Counted from the stretch's first letter, positions 10,245-35,449 are shown. The stretch is 35,516 bases of DNA from Candidatus Omnitrophota bacterium (GCA_029261095.1 JAJDBZ010000294.1:1-35516), one strand, 5' to 3'. The notes: generated by a model from the sequence alone, not told the origin. Program-made: numbers and translations.

Positions 10245-12644
10245 TCAGGCGGACTTTCTGTGGAGGTGTTCGTTGAGGGCTGAATAAAGGTGTTCAGGCT
10301 TAACCGGTTTGCTGAGGTAGCCATCCATACCCGCTTCAAGACACTTCTCTTTGTCGCCCTTCATGGCGTTGGCAGTCATGGCAAGGACGGGCATTCGCGC
10401 GCCACCCCCCTGCTCTCGGTCTCGCAGCTCGCGTGTCGCTTGATACCCATCCATTTCTGGCATCTGACAATCCATTAAAACCAAATCGAACTTCATCGCC
10501 TCCAACGCTTGAAGGGTCTCGATACCGTTTGCGGAGAGATGAACCGAGTAACCTTTCTTTTCGAGGATTTTTGAGGTGATCTTCTGATTCACCGGATTGT
10601 CCTCAGCCACCAGGATTCTGTACTCCCGATGAAGAGAGGTTGCTCGATGGTCGTGATCGCCCAAGGATTCATTATCCCTTGATCCTCCATCTTCTTCTGG
10701 AGCCAATGATGATCTTAGTATTTCAATGAGAGATTTTTCGCGGATGGGTTTCCTGAGAAATCCGATTCTTCTCCTGCTTGAATTGGCCGGAATTTCGAAA
10801 TCGGCTCCACGTGGAGCTAGGAAAATGAGAGGAACTTGAGCGAACCCTTCCAGCAAATCGATCCGGTGAGAAAGTTCTGCTGGACGAAGGCCCTCAAGCC
10901 GGGAATCGAGAATAATCGAATCGAACTTTTCGCCACCCTCTGCATGATCCTTCAAATCATCCAATGTTGTCCCCCGCGCGGACGAGGCCCCTAGATCAAG
11001 AAAGTGGTGTTGAAGGACCTCCACGAGCACATCTTCGCTCTCCAAAATCAAGACATGGCTGCCACGGATTGCATCGGATCCTGGATCGACGGGTGTGATA
11101 TTTTCGGATTGGCTCTTTCCGAGGTCCATGGTGAACCAAAAGGTGCTTCCTTGTCCTTCCACACTTTCGACCCCAACTTGCCCATTCATCAGGGTGGCCA
11201 GATCTTTACAGATGGCCAACCCGAGACCTGTCCCACCGAACTTGCGTGTGGTGGAAGAATCGACCTGAGAAAAAGATTGGAACAAGCGGTGTATCTTGTC
11301 CTCCGGAATGCCGATGCCGGTATCCTCCACCTCAGTTCTGAGAAGGATTCGATCCCCATCCTCATTCTCAGTATTGATTCGGATAGTGACAGACCCGTTC
11401 GAGGTAAACTTTAGTGCATTGTTGAGGTAGTTCAGAAGAATCTGGCGAATACGAGTTGAATCGCCAATCAAGATCCGAGGAACGGATAGATCGATGAAAG
11501 AACCGAGTGTGATGTTATTCTCATAGGATTGCTTAGCCAATAAATCCAGTGTGTCTTCAACTGTTTCGCGGAGGTCAAATTCGACAGCTTCAAGATCCAG
11601 TTTCCCTGCTTCTATTTTTGAAAAATCAAGGATGTCGTTGATGATTGTGAGCAGGCCTTCGCCACAACTGGTGATGGTTCTCGAATACTCTCGTTGCTCG
11701 GCGGTTAGCTCGGTCTCCAAAAGCAGACCCGCCATCCCGATGATACCGTTCATAGGAGTACGAATCTCATGACTCATGGATGCCAAGAAATCCGATTTGG
11801 CTTGAGTTGCGCAATGTGCTTCCTCTAAAGCGTCATCAAGAGCCTGATTCTTGTTTTCTATCTCCTGGGCGTATCCCAGAAGCCTTTTCTGGGCAAGATG
11901 GCGCTGAGTCTCATCCAGCCCCAAAGACAGGATCGAACTCACATTTCCATCCTCATCATAGAGCGCGGAATTGTACCATCTACAATCGATCGTATTCCCA
12001 TCGGGGAGAGTGTGTTTACAAAAAACAGTCCCTCGATCCTCCGACTTACACAACAGACGTTTCATCTTTGTCTCGAAGAACTCCAGTTCCCTTGTGCTGA
12101 ACATCTCCAATTCCAATGGCGTTTTTCCAACAGCATCCTTGGAGGGAATTGAGAAAACTTCTGCGGTCTTGTTAGACCAGATCTTGACCCGCAGGTCCGA
12201 ATCCCAATGGACGACGGCCAGGGGTGAGTTTTCGACATGGCTCGTCATGACCTGAGTTGCATGTCTGAGTTTCGAATCATCATCTGCATGACGCTGGATT
12301 TCTTTTTCGAGGGCAACGTTCCTGGTTTTCAGTTCATGCAATCGAGCCTTCATATCGATCGATTTTTGCTTGATCGGTAGGGCAATGGCAAACCCAACGT
12401 ATCCGGATGCTAATATGAATATGAAAACTGGTAGAGCACCAGGAAGAGAGATGGGAAACTGGATACTCCAATTAAGATCGAACAGGCCGCTCCAAATCAA
12501 AATAAGAGTGGCTGGTAGCCCCAGGAGAATTAGAAATGTATTCCAGGGGGGTCTGGATTTGGTAAAGATGCTTCGCCCAGTTGTTCTATCCCCCGGAGCT
12601 GGTTCGGCTTTTTCCAATCCGACCTTGTCACCGTCAATTCCCAA
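10245..12644 (-). CDS. Membrane-associated hybrid histidine kinase (TM-PAS-HisKA-HATPase-REC-REC)
   Basis: N-terminal hydrophobic helices; [19 protein letters not shown] (H-box); [43 protein letters not shown]1 ILDSRLEG...LRKP; REC2 [10 protein letters not shown]...[13 protein letters not shown]...SKPVKPEHL. Confidence 0.93.
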
Positions 12645-12991
12645 TGGAAGTCTCCTCTTTTCGTTAGAACAGATAGAATAATGATTTCGATTCCTAAAAA
12701 TCGAATCATCTCAACAGCTTATTCAGAGCAGTTTCAATGCCTTGATTGTAACAATATGGGGAATTACAGATTAGGATCGCTAACCACTATATTATCAATC
12801 GGTTAGGCAGTCATGAAGTGGCCAGAGGAGAAACCGGAACGAAAACGGGGATGTGTGAATGTGTCTTTAAATAGAGACACAAAAAAATTGCATTGATTAA
12901 ATTATGTGTTTTTCAAATTTTTCATACATATTTGGCAAAGGTCGCGAATCCCAGACAGTGTCTTCATAAAGCGACACAATATAGGTGGCGA

Positions 12992-14362
12992 TCAACTCCG
13001 AAAATTGTCAGCCGAAAATTCATATTTCGAGAGGATCTTGTGGAGGGATTGGCGGCTAATCCTTGCTTCTTTAGCAGAGCTGGTAACATTTCCACCATGG
13101 CGGGAAAGCAGGGCCTCCAGGTATTGTTTGTCGGCTTGAGCCAGGAAATCCTGCCTGGAAATTGAAGTCGTTAACTCTGAAAACCGCTTTCTTTCATCTG
13201 ATCCTTGCGACTCTTTTACTCTTGAAGGGAGGTCCGACAAATCAATTCTCCCAGAGTGGCAGAACGTAAGAGCATGTTCGATCACGTTCCTCAGCTCGCG
13301 GACATTTCCAGGCCAGTCGTAAGATTGGAGGAGTTTCATCGCGTTAGTGGTCACACCAGATACAACGTTTCTGTGAGAAAATCCCCTGAGAAAATGTTCG
13401 ACAAGAACTGGAATATCAGCGATTCGATCTCGTAATGGCGGGATAGTAATCGGGACCACCGCCAGGCGGAAATAGAGGTCTTTCCTAAAATACCCTGCCT
13501 CCACAAACTCCTCGAGATTTCGGTTCGTTGCGGCAATGATCTTGGTGTCGATTTCAACGTGGGATTTCTTCCCTAGTGGAAGGAATGTTTTTTCCTCAAG
13601 AAACCGAAGGAGTTTTGCTTGGAGATTCATCGGCATTTCCCCGATTTCGTCGAAGAACGTAATCCCTTTCTCTGATAATGCGAGCAACCCGACCTGTTCC
13701 CTGTCCGCACTGGTGAATGATCCTTTGCTGTGACCAAAGAGGATGGATTCCATCAATGATTCTGGGATCGCGGTACAATCAATCACATTAAACGCCTGAT
13801 CACGTCGATCTGTGTTCAGGTGAATGGTTCGCGCCACCAACTCCTTTCCAGTTCCGGTTTCACCAGAAATCAGGACTCCGGCATCCGATCTAGCGACCTG
13901 CGAAGCGATTTCTCTGACTTCTTTCATGACATCGGTCTCACCGACAATGGGTGCGAATCCTTCCATATCCAAAGGGGCAAGTCGTGCGCCGGGTTTCTGA
14001 AGAAGAACACGGTCGATTGTTTGAAGGAGGTCTCCGATCTCAAAAGGTTTTAGGAGATAATCGGAAACACCGACCTTGATACCATCGATGGCAGAGTCTA
14101 AGGATGGAAAGCCGGTAACGACAATCAATGGAACATCTTCAAACCGGTTTCTACCGCTGCGGATCCATTCCATTGAGGCATTCCCGGGCATATTCAGGTC
14201 TGAAATCACCAAATCGATCGACTCGGTTTCAAGAATCCGCATTGCTGACTCACCATCCCTGGCACAAATACAGGAATAACCCTCATTCTTGAGCAATTCG
14301 GCCGTTGTATCCAGGAATCCCGGTTCATCATCCGCGATGAGTAGACGGGGCGATTCAGACAT
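12992..14362 (-). CDS. Sigma-54-dependent response regulator (NtrC-type EBP)
   Basis: REC (RLLIADDEPGF...VISDLNMPG...LLKPF); AAA+ GETGTGKELVARTIH (Walker A), GITFFDEIGEMP (Walker B), DWPGNVRELRNVIEHA; Fis-type HTH 'GGNVTSSAKEARISRQSLHKIL'. Start set at MSESPRLL rather than 14497. Confidence 0.93.
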   Translation of the reverse strand: MSESPRLLIADDEPGFLDTTAELLKNEGYSCICARDGESAMRILETESIDLVISDLNMPGNASMEWIRSGRNRFEDVPLIVVTGFPSLDSAIDGIKVGVSDYLLKPFEIGDLLQTIDRVLLQKPGARLAPLDMEGFAPIVGETDVMKEVREIASQVARSDAGVLISGETGTGKELVARTIHLNTDRRDQAFNVIDCTAIPESLMESILFGHSKGSFTSADREQVGLLALSEKGITFFDEIGEMPMNLQAKLLRFLEEKTFLPLGKKSHVEIDTKIIAATNRNLEEFVEAGYFRKDLYFRLAVVPITIPPLRDRIADIPVLVEHFLRGFSHRNVVSGVTTNAMKLLQSYDWPGNVRELRNVIEHALTFCHSGRIDLSDLPSRVKESQGSDERKRFSELTTSISRQDFLAQADKQYLEALLSRHGGNVTSSAKEARISRQSLHKILSKYEFSADNFRS

Positions 14363-15935
14363 TTGCAGTCTCCTTAGGTCGTGGTTCATCATTGCATGAA
14401 ATTGGAATTGAGAACGTGAAAGTAGCCCCCTGGTTGACTGCGGACGCCACTGTAATCGCTCCACCCATAGCCTGAGCCAAGTTTTGCGAAACGGCAAGAC
14501 CTAACCCCAGGCCCCCTTGTCCCCCCGATTTCTTGGTGGTGAAGAAGGGATCAAAAATCTTAGATTGTATTTCTTGGGAAATTCCCTCTCCGGTGTCGGC
14601 CACTTCGACGATGGCATCATCCTCATATTTTCTAACCGTAACCCTGATTTTATCGCCAGAATGTGAAGCCTGAATCGCGTTGAGTATGAGATTGTAAAGA
14701 ATCTGATTGACTTCACCCTCAGGTTGGTAGACGAGGATGGGAGTTTTTGGGACCGATGTTTCGATCTCAAGGTGGTTTTGCTTGGATTTTGAAGAGAGTA
14801 ACCTGCAAACATCTGAAAGGGCCCCACTCAAATCGAACTGATTTGGTTTACCAGCCTTTGGACTATAGGTTTTATACATCTGTTGGATGATTGCCGCGAT
14901 ACGATCGATTTCCTTCTTGATCAGGTCAACATAGGACGCATATTTGCTGTCTTTCGGAATTTCGCTTCGTATCAGGGTAAACGCGTTCTTAATTCCTGCC
15001 AGCGGGTTGTTAATTTCATGCGCCACGCGGGCAGCCATCTGACCAGTGGCGGCAATCTTTTCCATAGCTGATTTCTGGCGCTGGAGTTCTTCTATCTTTT
15101 GTGTCCGTTGGTCGACCAACAATCCGAGGTGCGTGGTGTGTTCACGGAGGATTTCCTCCATCTTCTTCCGTTCGGTGATGTCGCGATAAACCATGACCCA
15201 TCCCAGAGCCTTGCCGACCTTGTCGAACAAGGTCCGATAGGTCACTTCAGCGGGAAAAGTCGATCCATCTTTTTTTCGGCATTTGGCCTCGAATTGCTGG
15301 ACAAGACCATGGGGAAGACTACTGAGGGGCGGAGATGCCAGCGAATCGAGTGGGCCATCGGCCGGATCGAGGATGATCGTGTGGGATTCACCAATAACCT
15401 CCTGAGAACGGAATCCAAATGTAACTTCGGCGCTCCCGGTCCAACGGACGATCTCTCCATCGAGATCTGTCAGGAGAACAGTATCGGGCATCGAATTCAA
15501 TATCTGATCCGATAAGAGGAGTTCCTCTTTGGCATGACGCCGCTCGAATTCTATCTTGTTCAAGCGGAGTACCTGGTCAACTGTGGCAGGCAGACGTTTG
15601 ATATGCTCAATCGTCTTGATGACGTAGTCGGCCACCCCCATCTTCATGGCCTCTATGGCAATTTCTTCGTTTCCTGTACCCGTTAGAAGAATAACGGGAG
15701 TTTCGAGGTTTTTCTGTTTCAGAATTTCCAGAACTTCGAGACCGGTGAACCCTCTTAGCAAGTAATCCGAGATAATGATATTCGGTGGGTTTTGGATTTC
15801 TTGAAGAAACTGTTCTCGGGTTTCGGCCTCGCGAATAATGGGGTCTTGAAATTCCTTGGTAAGGTATCGCTTGACCAAGCCCCGATCGGCACGATCATCG
15901 TCCACCAAGAGGAAGCTTATTTGTGGGATCGACAT
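14355..15935 (-). CDS. REC-PAS-histidine kinase (NtrB-like output kinase)
   Basis: REC (FLLVDDDRADRGLVKRYL...IISDYLLRGFTGLE); PAS (NSMPDTVLLTDLDGEIVRWTGSAEVTFGF); RVAHEINNPLAGIKNAF H-box; VADTGEGISQEIQSKIFDPFFTTKKSGGQGGLGLGLAVSQNLAQAMGG. Confidence 0.93.
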   Translation of the reverse strand: MSIPQISFLLVDDDRADRGLVKRYLTKEFQDPIIREAETREQFLQEIQNPPNIIISDYLLRGFTGLEVLEILKQKNLETPVILLTGTGNEEIAIEAMKMGVADYVIKTIEHIKRLPATVDQVLRLNKIEFERRHAKEELLLSDQILNSMPDTVLLTDLDGEIVRWTGSAEVTFGFRSQEVIGESHTIILDPADGPLDSLASPPLSSLPHGLVQQFEAKCRKKDGSTFPAEVTYRTLFDKVGKALGWVMVYRDITERKKMEEILREHTTHLGLLVDQRTQKIEELQRQKSAMEKIAATGQMAARVAHEINNPLAGIKNAFTLIRSEIPKDSKYASYVDLIKKEIDRIAAIIQQMYKTYSPKAGKPNQFDLSGALSDVCRLLSSKSKQNHLEIETSVPKTPILVYQPEGEVNQILYNLILNAIQASHSGDKIRVTVRKYEDDAIVEVADTGEGISQEIQSKIFDPFFTTKKSGGQGGLGLGLAVSQNLAQAMGGAITVASAVNQGATFTFSIPISCNDEPRPKETANV

Positions 15936-16387
15936 ATCGGGTCCTGTTCTGGCTTGGCATCAGATTTTAGAAAGAATCTGTGGACCGCAGCCAACAATTC
16001 GGAAAGTTCCGCGTAAGTGAGTGGTTTCACAAGGAAACAATTTGCACCGGCGCGGTATGATTCTGAAACATCAAGTGGGTCGGAGGATGCAGAGAGGATG
16101 GCACACGAAACTTTCTGGAGGCGTGGGTCTCCCTTTACCATTCGTACGAGATCGATTCCTGAGATGCGGGGAAGTCGGAGGTCGGTCATGAGCAATCGCA
16201 CGGTTGAGGCGGGCGACTGAAGGTATTGAAGGGCAGCCTCGGCATGAAGCACATGAACAATAGGAGTGTCGATACCCAGTTTTTTGAACACGCGGATAAC
16301 AAGTCGAGCATTGGATGGTTCGTCTTCAACCAGGAGGATCGAAGGGATATGGGGAGGTCGCTCTTCGATTTGGGTCGTTAAGTTCAT
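15917..16387 (-). CDS. Stand-alone response regulator receiver protein
   Basis: SILLVEDEPSNARLVIRVFKKLG, LLMTDLRLPRISGIDLVRM, CAILSAS, CFLVKPLTYAELSELL; 19-bp overlap with the downstream kinase. Confidence 0.9.
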   Translation of the reverse strand: MNLTTQIEERPPHIPSILLVEDEPSNARLVIRVFKKLGIDTPIVHVLHAEAALQYLQSPASTVRLLMTDLRLPRISGIDLVRMVKGDPRLQKVSCAILSASSDPLDVSESYRAGANCFLVKPLTYAELSELLAAVHRFFLKSDAKPEQDPICRSHK

Positions 16388-16393
16388 ATACGT

Positions 16394-17593
16394 TCACCCC
16401 GTCTGAGGTCGGGGTAACCTCAGTTCAAATCTCGTTCCCATATCCGATTGGGGAGAGATCGCCAATCGACCACAGTGGATCTCGGCCGCTTTCCTCGCAA
16501 GGGAGAGTCCCATTCCGCACCCTGGGAATTCGCTAGCAACATGAAGTTTTCGAAAAATCCCAAAAACTTCTTCGTGGTAGGCAGGATCGATCCCAATCCC
16601 GTTATCGCTAATCATAAAAAGAATACAGCTGGCTTGCTCCTTCACCTCAATGGTGACCTCGGGAATCTCACCCGTACTCACAAATTTCAGTGAATTATCG
16701 ATCAAGCTTTCGAAGATGATTGAAAAAACTCTTCGATTTCCGAGAACGACCGGAAATTCTCCGACCAAGGTCAGTGTGGCTTGGGTCTCTTCTATTCTGT
16801 CCTTGAACCTTCCGATGGCTTTCATGATCACATGTTCGGAGTTAATAGGGTTCAGAATCCATTCTTCTTTCCCAAGATTACAGTAATCGGTTAAACCCCC
16901 GAGGAGATCCCGCATCCTCAGGGCACCCTGCGAAATCTCGTTCAAGTACCCCAAAGCCTCCGGGTCGAGAGTTTGTCCAAAATCCTCCGACAGGGCTTCG
17001 GCAAATCCTTCGATCGCTCGTAATGGGGCCTTGATTTCATGGGAGAGAACAGAAGCCAAGCCCTCAATGGCTCCTCTATGGCTCTGGAACTGAAGAAGGC
17101 TCTTCTCAAATGTCAGTCGATCCGCGCCGGCGCCCCAGAACCCGATGTGGACCCCATCCGAATCGAATCGTGGGATAACAATTTCGTGGAAACAATGGAA
17201 CCTCCCGAGAGAATCTTGTAATCGGTATGAAAGGGATCGGTGCGATGTGTCCTCCGAAACCCGCTTGATGTCGTCCTTCAAAGATTGCAAATCGTTTGGA
17301 TGGATTCCATCCATCCACCCCGGACCGATTTCCTGGTCCAGCGATTTCCCAGTGTATGCAAGCCATGCCGAGTTGAAGTAGGTGCGAACTAAAACAGGAT
17401 CAGAAATCCAGATGGGAAACGGGGCCTGCTCGGCAAATTCGCAGAGCGCCTCGTCCGATTGGAGACAGGTGGCGACAAGTGAATTCCCCTCGAACAGAGC
17501 GACGCCCTCCAAACTGATCGGTTCAACAATCGATTTCCGATTCACATCCACGATTTCAAGAAATAACCGCTCATGATTCGGATTAGAGATCAT
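16394..17593 (-). CDS. PAS-histidine kinase (phytochrome-like transmitter)
   Basis: PAS (EQAPFPIWISDPVLVRTYFNSAWLAYTGKSLDQEIGPGWMDGIHPND); SVLSHEIKAPLRAIEGFAEAL; ISDNGIGIDPAYHEEVFGIFRKLHVASEFPGCGMGLSLARKAAEIHCG. Confidence 0.92.
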   Translation of the reverse strand: MISNPNHERLFLEIVDVNRKSIVEPISLEGVALFEGNSLVATCLQSDEALCEFAEQAPFPIWISDPVLVRTYFNSAWLAYTGKSLDQEIGPGWMDGIHPNDLQSLKDDIKRVSEDTSHRSLSYRLQDSLGRFHCFHEIVIPRFDSDGVHIGFWGAGADRLTFEKSLLQFQSHRGAIEGLASVLSHEIKAPLRAIEGFAEALSEDFGQTLDPEALGYLNEISQGALRMRDLLGGLTDYCNLGKEEWILNPINSEHVIMKAIGRFKDRIEETQATLTLVGEFPVVLGNRRVFSIIFESLIDNSLKFVSTGEIPEVTIEVKEQASCILFMISDNGIGIDPAYHEEVFGIFRKLHVASEFPGCGMGLSLARKAAEIHCGRLAISPQSDMGTRFELRLPRPQTG

Positions 17594-30864: not shown

Positions 30865-31129
30865 TGTTCAGATGAATGGCCTCCCCCGTGGGAGAGGAAG
30901 GAAAGAGAATCCTCAGATCTAAAAATTTGTTGAAGTTATCTCAGGATTCGATACACTTTCTTTGAATATTGGATGTATGTGAAGGGTTTTTCAGGGATCA
31001 TGGAAAACCCATTGTGATATCTGTTGAGAAGTTTCTCTATACCGGCCCCGGGGAGGCATTAAGCCATCCCGTATCCGATTTTTCTCGCCCAAAAAAATTG
31101 TTTAAATGGAACGTCAAGGAGACCGAACT

Positions 31130-34100
31130 ATGTGGTCATCGCTCAAACAACTTCGTCCCGGCAGCATCTTAAAAAATGTACCTCAGCTGATCCTCATGGT
31201 CTCGGTACTGGTGGTTCCGCTTTCTCCAAGTTGGGGAATGCCGGCCGATCCCACGAATATCCGTACTTGGGGGCTCAAGGGTGACAAGACGAAAATCACC
31301 TGGACCGACAACGCGAGCGATGAAGACGAATACCGGGTCGAGCGATCCTCAAACGGAGGCGGTTTTAGCGAGATCGCCACGCTGGCCGCAGATACCAACA
31401 AATATTTCGATGATGGATTCGACACCTCCAACACCTACCGTTATCGAGTCCGCGCCTACCGCGCGAGCGATACAAGTTTTTCGAGCTACACGGACACCTC
31501 TCTGGGACCTCAAATCCTCACTGGGTCCAATTTCCGAATGTTCTACAACACCAGCGAATGTTTCCCGACAACAGGAGATAAAAAGAATTGCACTCCGAAC
31601 ACGATGAACGGGATGATGCAAAACGAGATGGCGGCGCGGATCAACGACGTTCTTGACGGTTCATTGGTCGAGTTTGTAACCAATTTCGGGTTTAACGATC
31701 CCTACAATCCTGAAGGAGGCGAACCGATCCCGGTAAACATGAAATACTGTGACGGCGGCGGATGCGCCGGAGGGTGTGGGATCGGTCTCGCCCCCGCGTT
31801 CCACGATCCCTATGACCATACGATGAATTCGGGAGACCCCGGAATGCTTGTGGTTCCCGCGCACGAACTCTTCCACATGATTCAGTTCAGCTACGACGCG
31901 GTGAAGACCGACCCCGCCGGAGCATGGGTCACCGAAGCGCAGGCACGGGCGATTCAAGACCTGGTGTGCATCGATGCGGGGGGCCTGACTTGTCAGAATG
32001 TAGATGACGAGCCCGGGGGGATCGCGCCATTCTACGGCCAGGTGAACTCTTATTTGGGGAACACCAACCGTCCCATCAATGAACTCTCTTATACCGCTTG
32101 TCTCTTTTGGTCTTATCTCTGCCAGGAATACGGAACCAACATGACCGAACCTCAACTCGGTCTAGATTTTCTCGAGAAGTTTTGGGACGAAGCCGACGAT
32201 GACAAGAACCGCGATGGGATTCAGGTGGTGGATGCGACGTTGAAGAACATTAACGCCTCATTCAGTTTCAAGGGAGCGTTCAAAGATTTTGTCATCGCCA
32301 ACTACGCAAAAGATCTAAGCGGAGCGGGAGTTCCTTCGAAATACCAGTATGTCGACGAGTCGCAATCGCCGGGGTCTTACGACATGGTCGCGCTTGAACT
32401 GAGCGAAGACATCTCCGGCATGGAGCAGGTGGGGCCGATGCTGGCGGATGTTCAAAAATGGGGCGCTGTCTATCACGAGGTTCGACCAGATAACACGGTG
32501 CCTTATATCCAAGTCGATTATAGTGTCGATAACGGGGTCCCGGCGTTCTTCTGCCTCCTCGCCATCAAAGGCGGCGAAATCGACATGGAGATCCGTCACG
32601 AGGGCATGGATTTCGCGGAATCCTTCGCGAATGACAGCTACGACGCCATTGCTGTGGTGGTGGCGGGACTCGAGAGCGATGTCAATTATCGTTATTCGAT
32701 CAACGGCACCCAACCGATTATCAACATTCTCGATCCGCTGTCTGGAAGAAAGGCACTCGTGGGAGATAAGGCCGCTCCGGAAAAATTTGTGGCGAAAGTC
32801 GAGGTCCTCGACCCCGATTCAAACCCAATCGAGGGGATCGCGGACAACGCGTTTACGTTCGAGATTGGTCCCCAAACATTGGGGGCCGGGAATATTGTGA
32901 CGAGCGCGTACGTTCAGGGGCAGTATTGGTTTGTCATTCAGTCTCCTACCCAGACAGCAAACACGGACTACGATTTTGTCGCGAGTTGGTCGGTGCTCTC
33001 CGACACGGAAACGAATGCTGTTTCATACATGATGCGCGCCGATGCGGACAACATGCTGGTGATCGACAAATCGGGGAGTATGGGCGCGCCCATTTCAAAA
33101 CTTCAGGACGCACAAGACGCCGCAAACCTATATGTCGACAGTTGGCGTGAGGGGGACAAGGTGGGTGTCGCGAGCTTCAATTGCACTTCTGACCCATCAG
33201 ACCTCACTCTCCGCGATTGGAATGACATGAGCCGGATGGATGCCCACACCGCGATCGGTGGAATCGGAGCGGGTGGAAACACCTCTATCGGTGCCGGACT
33301 TCAAGAGGGTTTGGACGAGTTAATCGCCCGGGGGGACGCGAGCCACCAATGGGCCGTCATCCTATTAAGCGACGGCAACAACACTTGTGACCCGGACATC
33401 GCGAATTTTCTCTCCACCTATGAAGCGCGAAAAGATAACGGAGATCAAGTGCCTCAGGTCCACACCGTTGCGATCGGAAACGACGCAAATCGCCCCGACC
33501 TGGAGAATTTGGCGAGCAAGACGGGGGGGAGCTACCAGTTTGCCGCCGAACCCTCTCCAAAAGGCCCGGCAGCCGGCGATTTTGGTCGCGATATCGCTGA
33601 GATCTACCGAGTGATCAGCGAAAGAATAACCAGGACCCAACAAGTCCTGATTGCGAGAGACGAACTGAGACGAAAACCCGAGAACGATCACCCGTTCACC
33701 GTCGATGGCGGTGCCTCGGAGTTGGTGGTGATCGCCAAGTTCGAACCGGGTACGAACCAACCGGATGTCGTCTTGGTCGACCCAATGGGAGCAACACACA
33801 CGGCGGGTATCGGAATTCTGAACCGACACAAAGTGTTCCGAGTCGGGTCGCCCGCGCCGGGTCAATGGGTCGTGCAGTTGAGATGTCCAAGTGGCTCGCA
33901 ATCTTGTTTCGGATCCGAGTACCTCGTCGAAGGAGCGGTCAAGAGCAGCCTTACGATGGACATGTTTTTTGTTCTACCTGTCGAGGATCGTATTGTGGGA
34001 ACCCCAATGCCGGTATTGGTGTCGTTGACCGACAGTGGGCCAATCAAGGGCGCAATTGTGGCGCTGGGCATCGAAGATCCATTGGGGAACTCGTCCGGCC

Positions 34101-35449
34101 TCTTGCTTTTCGATGATGGTTTGCATGGAGACGGTACCGCGAACGATGGAATTTATGGCAACACGATCTATGGAACGGGGCAACCGGGAACTTATCGAGT
34201 CCAGTCGGTGGCAGTCGGCGAGTCCGACGATTTCGGGCCATTCGTTCGTCGTGTACTGGAGTCGTTCGTGATGCGAGGGGATACGGACAACGACCAGGAT
34301 CGAATTCCCGACAGTTACGAAATCCGCGTGGGCCTCGATCCTAAAAACCCCGACGATGCCGGAGAGGATCCGGACAAAGACAAACTGAATAATTTCCTTG
34401 AATGCCAAATCGGAACCGATCCGTTTGACCCCGACACCGATGACGGCGGCGAAGAGGACGGTTCCGAGTACTTCAACCAGCGCAATCCACACGAACCGGG
34501 AGATGATTTGGTGCGTCCTCCCAGACTGGTTGCTATTCCTGGAGTCAACAGGAATCTAATCCGGTTCACGATTCCGATCTTGCCTGGGAGCGAGGATATA
34601 AAGGATGTGACCTACACATTTGAGATTCAAAGGTGTGTCGGACAGAACAACGAGTTCACGGTACACGAAGCCGTTTACGCTGTGACCGAAACGATTGATT
34701 TCCAGTATGAAGACACATCGATCAAGAACGGAACTTTCGCGAAATACCTCTTCTACGTGGTCGGCCCAAACGGGGCGCGGAGCGCACCGTCGAACATCGT
34801 ATCTGCCACTCCACAAGCCGATCCCTATCCGCCCTATGGAGGGATCTTGATCAACGATGGCGAGGCATCGACCACATCCATGATGGGGACGCTTCGGTTG
34901 TTCGCCACGGACGGTTACGATCCCGAATACGATTTCCCGGACCGTGACGAAGAAGACCCGGATGCCCAGGTCTCGGGAGTGGCTGACATGATGATCTCGA
35001 ACTTCAGCGATGGGTCGGATGGAATGTGGGAACCCTTCGCCGAGAAAGTGGAGGACTGGCCGCTGATGCCGAACCAATCGGATATTGCCACGGTTTACGC
35101 CAAGTTCCGCGACAATGCCGGGTGTGTGTCGGAAATTTATCAGTCCTCGATTCGGGTGCTCGATCCCACTGCGACTCCGAGTCCGACAAACACACCGACT
35201 TCGACACCAACGGGTACTTCCACTCCAAATCCGACTCCATCGGAGACACCCGAAATGTGCGATATCGAGGACGGCGATTACGATCTCAATGGCGACGGTG
35301 AAGTTAACGCGGAAGATCTCGTGGAATTGCTCGAAGCGATCCGGAGGGGATCAGTCGATCCGAAGTACGACTTCAACGGCGACGGGGTTGCGGACGAAAA
35401 CGACGCTGCATTTTTCGCGACTCAGTGGAAGAAGATGGTGACCCCCTAA
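31130..35449 (+). CDS. Large secreted multidomain protein: FN3, HExxH metallopeptidase-like region, vWA, CLCA-like segment, TSP3-like repeats, T/P linker, dockerin
   Basis: Signal peptide; FN3-like PTNIRTWGLKGDKTKITWTDNASDEDEYRVERSS; HELFH at 31862-31876; DKSGSM MIDAS at 33065-33082; LLFDDGLHGDGTANDGIYGN; DTDNDQDRIPDSYEIRVGLDPKNPDD; TATPSPTNTPTSTPTGTSTPNPTPSETP; DLNGDGEVNAEDL + DFNGDGVADENDA. Confidence 0.88.
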   Translation: MWSSLKQLRPGSILKNVPQLILMVSVLVVPLSPSWGMPADPTNIRTWGLKGDKTKITWTDNASDEDEYRVERSSNGGGFSEIATLAADTNKYFDDGFDTSNTYRYRVRAYRASDTSFSSYTDTSLGPQILTGSNFRMFYNTSECFPTTGDKKNCTPNTMNGMMQNEMAARINDVLDGSLVEFVTNFGFNDPYNPEGGEPIPVNMKYCDGGGCAGGCGIGLAPAFHDPYDHTMNSGDPGMLVVPAHELFHMIQFSYDAVKTDPAGAWVTEAQARAIQDLVCIDAGGLTCQNVDDEPGGIAPFYGQVNSYLGNTNRPINELSYTACLFWSYLCQEYGTNMTEPQLGLDFLEKFWDEADDDKNRDGIQVVDATLKNINASFSFKGAFKDFVIANYAKDLSGAGVPSKYQYVDESQSPGSYDMVALELSEDISGMEQVGPMLADVQKWGAVYHEVRPDNTVPYIQVDYSVDNGVPAFFCLLAIKGGEIDMEIRHEGMDFAESFANDSYDAIAVVVAGLESDVNYRYSINGTQPIINILDPLSGRKALVGDKAAPEKFVAKVEVLDPDSNPIEGIADNAFTFEIGPQTLGAGNIVTSAYVQGQYWFVIQSPTQTANTDYDFVASWSVLSDTETNAVSYMMRADADNMLVIDKSGSMGAPISKLQDAQDAANLYVDSWREGDKVGVASFNCTSDPSDLTLRDWNDMSRMDAHTAIGGIGAGGNTSIGAGLQEGLDELIARGDASHQWAVILLSDGNNTCDPDIANFLSTYEARKDNGDQVPQVHTVAIGNDANRPDLENLASKTGGSYQFAAEPSPKGPAAGDFGRDIAEIYRVISERITRTQQVLIARDELRRKPENDHPFTVDGGASELVVIAKFEPGTNQPDVVLVDPMGATHTAGIGILNRHKVFRVGSPAPGQWVVQLRCPSGSQSCFGSEYLVEGAVKSSLTMDMFFVLPVEDRIVGTPMPVLVSLTDSGPIKGAIVALGIEDPLGNSSGLLLFDDGLHGDGTANDGIYGNTIYGTGQPGTYRVQSVAVGESDDFGPFVRRVLESFVMRGDTDNDQDRIPDSYEIRVGLDPKNPDDAGEDPDKDKLNNFLECQIGTDPFDPDTDDGGEEDGSEYFNQRNPHEPGDDLVRPPRLVAIPGVNRNLIRFTIPILPGSEDIKDVTYTFEIQRCVGQNNEFTVHEAVYAVTETIDFQYEDTSIKNGTFAKYLFYVVGPNGARSAPSNIVSATPQADPYPPYGGILINDGEASTTSMMGTLRLFATDGYDPEYDFPDRDEEDPDAQVSGVADMMISNFSDGSDGMWEPFAEKVEDWPLMPNQSDIATVYAKFRDNAGCVSEIYQSSIRVLDPTATPSPTNTPTSTPTGTSTPNPTPSETPEMCDIEDGDYDLNGDGEVNAEDLVELLEAIRRGSVDPKYDFNGDGVADENDAAFFATQWKKMVTP

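Follow-up and report, generated by a model that had tools for sequence, protein, structure and literature searches.

A predicted secreted metallopeptidase of a Candidatus Omnitrophota bacterium combining an MXAN_6640-type peptidase module with a CLCA-like vWA-BSD half

A 35,516-nt stretch of DNA from a Candidatus Omnitrophota bacterium (JAJDBZ010000294.1, here called the window) contains a gene in which a HELFH motif precedes a vWA domain. A sequence-only reading had likened this layout to animal CLCA proteins and proposed a self-cleaving surface adhesin or a protease docked to a scaffold. Which parts of the protein are CLCA-like, and how might it act? By sequence comparison, the protein is predicted to be secreted; its second half, consisting of the vWA and a beta-sheet-rich domain (BSD), is CLCA-like, and its predicted zinc-peptidase half comes from an uncharacterised bacterial family.

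Gene, domain order and terminal attachments

The open reading frame extends from an upstream ATG at 31106 to 35449 (+; 1447 aa). The ATG at 31130 is the likelier start and was also the one proposed earlier; it is preceded by AAGGAG 8 nt upstream and yields 1439 aa (31130-35449, +). Residues of the window protein are numbered from the ATG at 31106. With a calculated pI of 4.2 the protein is acidic; it is composed of a signal sequence, FN3, HELFH zinc-peptidase module, two beta domains, vWA, BSD, TSP3-like repeats, FN3/Ig-like domains, T/P linker and type I dockerin, in this order:

31130..35449, +, complete coding sequence (ATG preceded by a ribosome-binding site)
31130..31237, +, predicted Sec signal peptide, KQLR...LILMVSVLVVPLSPSWG (read from sequence)
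31238..31495, +, FN3-like domain at the N-terminus, aa 45-130 (FN3con 4u3h, phmmer E 0.003; FN3-type matches)
31517..32401, +, predicted zinc-peptidase module of MXAN_6640 type, aa 138-432 (NF045524; profile match; model m23f52d7bf970)
31862..31876, +, HELFH motif, aa 253-257, on a predicted helix (model 108-124; HExFH invariant in 21 sequences)
31934..31936, +, E277, candidate third zinc ligand, on the next predicted helix (model 135-150; invariant in 21 sequences)
32399..33025, +, two beta domains, about aa 432-545 and 558-640 (model secondary structure; the first also in stand-alone MXAN_6640-type proteins)
33053..33541, +, vWA domain, aa 650-812, with MIDAS D654xS656xS658, T726 and D756 (PF00092, E 7.6e-10; 6pyo matches; invariant residues)
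33563..34276, +, CLCA-type BSD, about aa 820-1057 (TIGR00868 to position 682; profile match)
34106..34213, +, choice-of-anchor X motif DDGLHGDGTANDGIYGN, aa 1001-1036 (NF041940, 42.7 bits, cut-off 25)
34277..34495, +, three calcium-binding repeats of TSP3-like type, aa 1058-1130 (visible in the sequence; MtsD matched weakly, E 0.001)
34496..35152, +, second FN3-like and Ig-like domains, about aa 1131-1349 (conserved with relatives; presumed fold)
35153..35257, +, Thr/Pro linker TPTSTPTGTSTPNPTPSETP (sequence)
35258..35446, +, type I dockerin with two F-hand loops, DLNGDGEVNAED and DFNGDGVADEND, both intact (PF00404, 23.8 bits, cut-off 22.9)

All motifs quoted in the sequence-only reading were recovered, namely HELFHMIQ (aa 253-260), WVTEAQARAIQD (aa 274-285), VIDKSGSM (aa 652-659), LVDPMGATHTAG and LLFDDGLHGDGTANDGIYGN. 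They are not chance occurrences, because HExFHxxQ, E277 and the MIDAS residues vary little or not at all among 20-21 homologues from several phyla. A signal sequence equivalent to that of the window protein (...LLLLGVFVIPDVTWG) is present in relative L023. Elsewhere in the window, adjoining two-component signalling genes occupy 10245-17593 (-), with Pfam hybrid histidine kinases at 10245-12644 and 14355-15935.

The terminal attachments named earlier were also found. The N-terminal FN3, weakly matched to FN3con as its best solved structure, recurs in L023, a relative of the same family, and is missing from L024-L026. The TSP3-like repeats are visible in the sequence, and PF18884 scored in three of five relatives. 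The dockerin exceeded its Pfam cut-off with both calcium loops intact. Other relatives end in further TSP3 repeats or in FG-GAP, lactonase-like, CARDB or carboxypeptidase-regulatory-like domains. Of five class members, the window protein and its family relative were the only ones in which FN3 and dockerin were seen; both are therefore lineage-specific additions, and the dockerin may bind cohesins. In the genome to which the window belongs (G000), cohesin-like modules were located in three separate proteins (265, 1076 and 525 aa; contig C366, L105, 6846-13597); two of the three modules scored above cut-off and two of the three proteins have dockerin-like ends. Among the ORFs read on this contig, no multi-cohesin scaffoldin was found. 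The same genome encodes about 20 further proteins with matches to the linker and dockerin that end the window protein. A literature search returned no work joining dockerin, vWA and metalloprotease in uncultured bacteria.

The two halves of the protein and their distribution

Sequence and profile comparisons place the HELFH module with MXAN_6640-type putative metalloproteases. NCBIfam model NF045524, whose members are themselves putative metalloproteases only, matched aa 247-403 (46.3 bits, under the curated cut-off of 140 bits; E 4.6e-12) and gave matches in all five class members tested. This cut-off delimits a narrow core, because stand-alone MXAN_6640-type relatives tested here also scored just 32-39 bits. 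When the first 640 residues were searched alone, MXAN_6640 was the sole match. In profile-profile comparison with stand-alone MXAN_6640-type proteins, the peptidase region aligned over 326 columns (E 1e-30), spanning the first beta domain. The window protein has HELFH[MQH]VQ, the downstream Glu, the following beta domain and conserved downstream blocks in common with the MXAN_6640 family; the stand-alone relatives (about 950-1080 aa) differ from it in lacking the vWA-BSD half. In the literature searched, no paper was found under the MXAN_6640 name.

In the 21 fused homologues aligned, HExFHxxQ and the Glu at +20 after the second His were invariant (spacing counted in the window protein). In the predicted structure (pLDDT 80; model of peptidase and beta domains), HELFH lies on one helix and E277 on the next. 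HExxH with a Glu at 20 residues is gluzincin spacing, and in clan MA(E) the third-ligand Glu is placed on the following helix. The module is thus gluzincin-like in its spacing, and proteolytic activity would be expected from it. A Foldseek search with the peptidase-plus-beta model retrieved no zincin in the top 50, where beta-domain matches swamped the search; the peptidase fold is therefore without confirmation from a solved structure. Profile A6 gave chance-level matches only against PDB sequences.

The description of a vWA with intact MIDAS (VIDKSGSM) was upheld by the Pfam match and by the D-S-S, T and D residues, which are (nearly) invariant among 20-21 homologues. For the family profile, the vWA of human CLCA1 (6pyo) was the second-best solved structure after a mussel thread protein (E 1.1e-15). 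The predicted structure of the vWA half (pLDDT 86) could be fitted to 6pyo with a TM-score of 0.87 by target length. Planctomycetes locus L050 (RBG_13_46_10) was excluded from the vWA structure job, as its vWA is partly masked (N in the record).

The similarity of the second half to CLCA exceeds that of a generic vWA, as judged by sequence models. The NCBIfam CLCA/hCaCC model TIGR00868 matched aa 650-1038 across both vWA and BSD (E 2e-15), and profile-profile comparison of vWA plus BSD with bacterial CLCA-type and related proteins extended over 377 columns (E 7e-57), in line with the CLCA likeness claimed earlier for the vWA and the 'DDG..GDG...DGIY' segment. The BSD alone still matched TIGR00868 (positions 526-682), weakly in the window protein (E 0.0097) and more strongly over a comparable stretch of relative L030 (E 4.6e-7); the likeness is thus not confined to the vWA. 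Among 386 genomes, a handful of proteins match TIGR00868 through vWA and BSD, and most other vWA matches end near position 480.

The peptidase module was found in 5 of 14 genomes of the class, always with the same core architecture. Loci were collected with an alignment scan of 84,980 genomes (35 loci); a contig scan with a single protein as query had given no match. Peptidase and vWA motifs lay within one ORF at 16 named-genome loci of those examined, and about 20 proteins from several phyla share the conserved fusion. Record titles of the fusion loci name Chloroflexota, Acidobacteria, Desulfobacterales, Deferrisomatales, Myxococcota, Gammaproteobacteria, Cellvibrionales, Planctomycetes and Nocardioides. 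Some of these labels may be wrong, because most loci come from metagenome-assembled genomes; two Nocardioides records (SR21, URHA0020) do not bear a metagenome-assembled label. Distances between peptidase halves correlated with those between vWA-BSD halves (r 0.95, reached in 0 of 2000 permutations), which argues that both halves travelled together. No homologue was found on plasmids, and gene neighbourhoods were not conserved among ten loci.

Proposed action and alternative readings

The protein is probably a secreted chimeric metallopeptidase, in which an MXAN_6640-type zinc peptidase is joined to a CLCA-type vWA-BSD chassis. Most likely, it is a putative cell-surface metallopeptidase positioned by its vWA. 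Catalysis would be carried out by HExxH and the Glu 20 residues downstream, followed by the module's own beta domain. The vWA would capture a partner or substrate via its metal-dependent MIDAS, and the BSD would connect the vWA to the C-terminal half. The TSP3 repeats and, in this lineage only, FN3 and dockerin may tether the protein to the cell surface or to partners that bear cohesins.

The sequence-only reading had further suggested self-cleavage. If the protein were a precursor of the CLCA1 and CLCA2 kind, its peptidase would cut in trans behind the BSD and free the N-terminal half from an anchored C-terminus. Such cleavage would extend the chimeric-metallopeptidase reading more than compete with it, and is considered rather doubtful. 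The module order is that of CLCA, and for CLCA2 self-cleavage is zinc-dependent and requires the HExxH Glu (PMC10669480). An acidic TSP3 stretch also lies behind the BSD, near the CLCA cut position. However, no signature of a cleavage site was recognised, the peptidase belongs to a different family and the comparison is by analogy only.

It is unlikely that the protein is a surface adhesin that acts through its vWA, with an HExxH module that does not function as a protease. Its vWA, FN3, Ig-like and dockerin modules are of a kind typical for adhesins; the catalytic motif has been lost repeatedly among CLCA lineages (PMC3650047), and it is substituted in bacterial CLCA-type proteins L138 and L013. 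Against this stands the invariance of HExFH and the Glu at +20 in 21 of 21 fused homologues, which would be unlikely without a catalytic or metal-binding constraint.

It is very improbable, and largely refuted by the profile comparisons, that the protein is a true CLCA with a CLCA_N domain too diverged to be recognised. The order peptidase-vWA-BSD and the strong CLCA match of the second half would fit such an origin. The peptidase region, however, had no PF08434 (Pfam CLCA) match, and the N-terminal 640 aa had no TIGR00868 match. PF08434 gave no match above cut-off over 14 and 386 genomes, nor in any control. This silence is weak and was not used alone, because PF08434 also misses divergent bacterial CLCA_N-like domains (L138, L013, L139). 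Bacterial CLCA_N-like domains were instead gathered via TIGR00868 and compared by profile. Using hhalign, the peptidase region with beta domains matched the bacterial CLCA_N-like profile (A9, three sequences only) with a probability of 0.1%, set against E 1e-30 for MXAN_6640-type proteins. The third-ligand candidates differ as well: the Glu of the window protein is at +20, whereas in the intact CLCA_N-like domain of L139 (genome G150; HEFGH, motif HEFGHYGYGLYDEY) acidic residues follow at a short distance. The CLCA_N-like domains of L138 (G228) and L013 (G087) are without HExxH (QAFAHYAFGLYDEH).

Of the CLCA layout perceived in the sequence-only reading, the order peptidase-vWA-BSD thus stands and the homology of the HELFH region to a CLCA-type peptidase does not. 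CLCAs are defined by their CLCA_N domain (PMC3650047), which excludes the window protein, since its peptidase domain is not CLCA_N. By analogy, the window protein may nevertheless work like a CLCA, with the peptidase in front and vWA-BSD behind. Chance juxtaposition of a protease and a generic vWA with no special relation to CLCA is barely credible and was rejected: vWA domains are common and promiscuous, but the BSD likeness persists without the vWA, the profile match covers vWA and BSD together, and most other vWA matches in the 386 genomes end at the vWA.

Exchange of peptidases on the vWA-BSD chassis

CLCA proteins (TIGR00868), which are metazoan and in some cases prokaryotic, share with the window protein the module order, vWA/BSD homology and the DDG-x-GDG-x-DG[IV]Y motif. 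Unlike them, the window protein has a non-CLCA_N peptidase, two beta domains before the vWA, and a C-terminus with TSP3 repeats and dockerin. In CLCA-type architectures, replacement of CLCA_N by Peptidase_M10 (Teredinibacter) or CHAP (Methanosarcina) has been described (PMC3650047). These exchanges likewise combine the same chassis with an unrelated peptidase, each in a single species, whereas the present fusion involves another peptidase family and occurs across several phyla. As judged from domain content, the window-protein family is a further peptidase swap on the CLCA chassis, more widespread than those with M10 and CHAP.

A subtilase fusion was also observed at L141 (G361:C495:1-3228), with vWA, CLCA-type BSD, TSP3 repeats and a MAM-like insert inside the vWA. 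Its order of peptidase, beta segment, vWA, BSD and TSP3 is the same as in the window protein; it differs in its Peptidase_S8 catalytic domain and in the insert. Its predicted domains make it one more swap on the vWA-BSD chassis.

As a tentative and less probable extension, vWA-BSD could be a general bacterial chassis for secreted peptidases, which would carry five or more unrelated catalytic modules (CLCA_N, M10, CHAP, S8 and MXAN_6640-type) and act on the peptidase itself in latency, activation or substrate presentation; animal CLCAs would then be one branch. The fusion family bears on the proposed animal origin of prokaryotic CLCAs, because the chassis occurs in many bacterial phyla. If the general-chassis reading is true, the published hypothesis of animal-to-bacteria transfer would be weakened, for the chassis only.

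CLCA1 is an abundant mucus protease. A fragment consisting of its catalytic domain and vWA is the more active form and cuts the mucin MUC2 (PMC6851300). A CLCA vWA-BSD half joined to another peptidase separates the functions of both, and the features kept across swaps are likely to reflect the job of the chassis.
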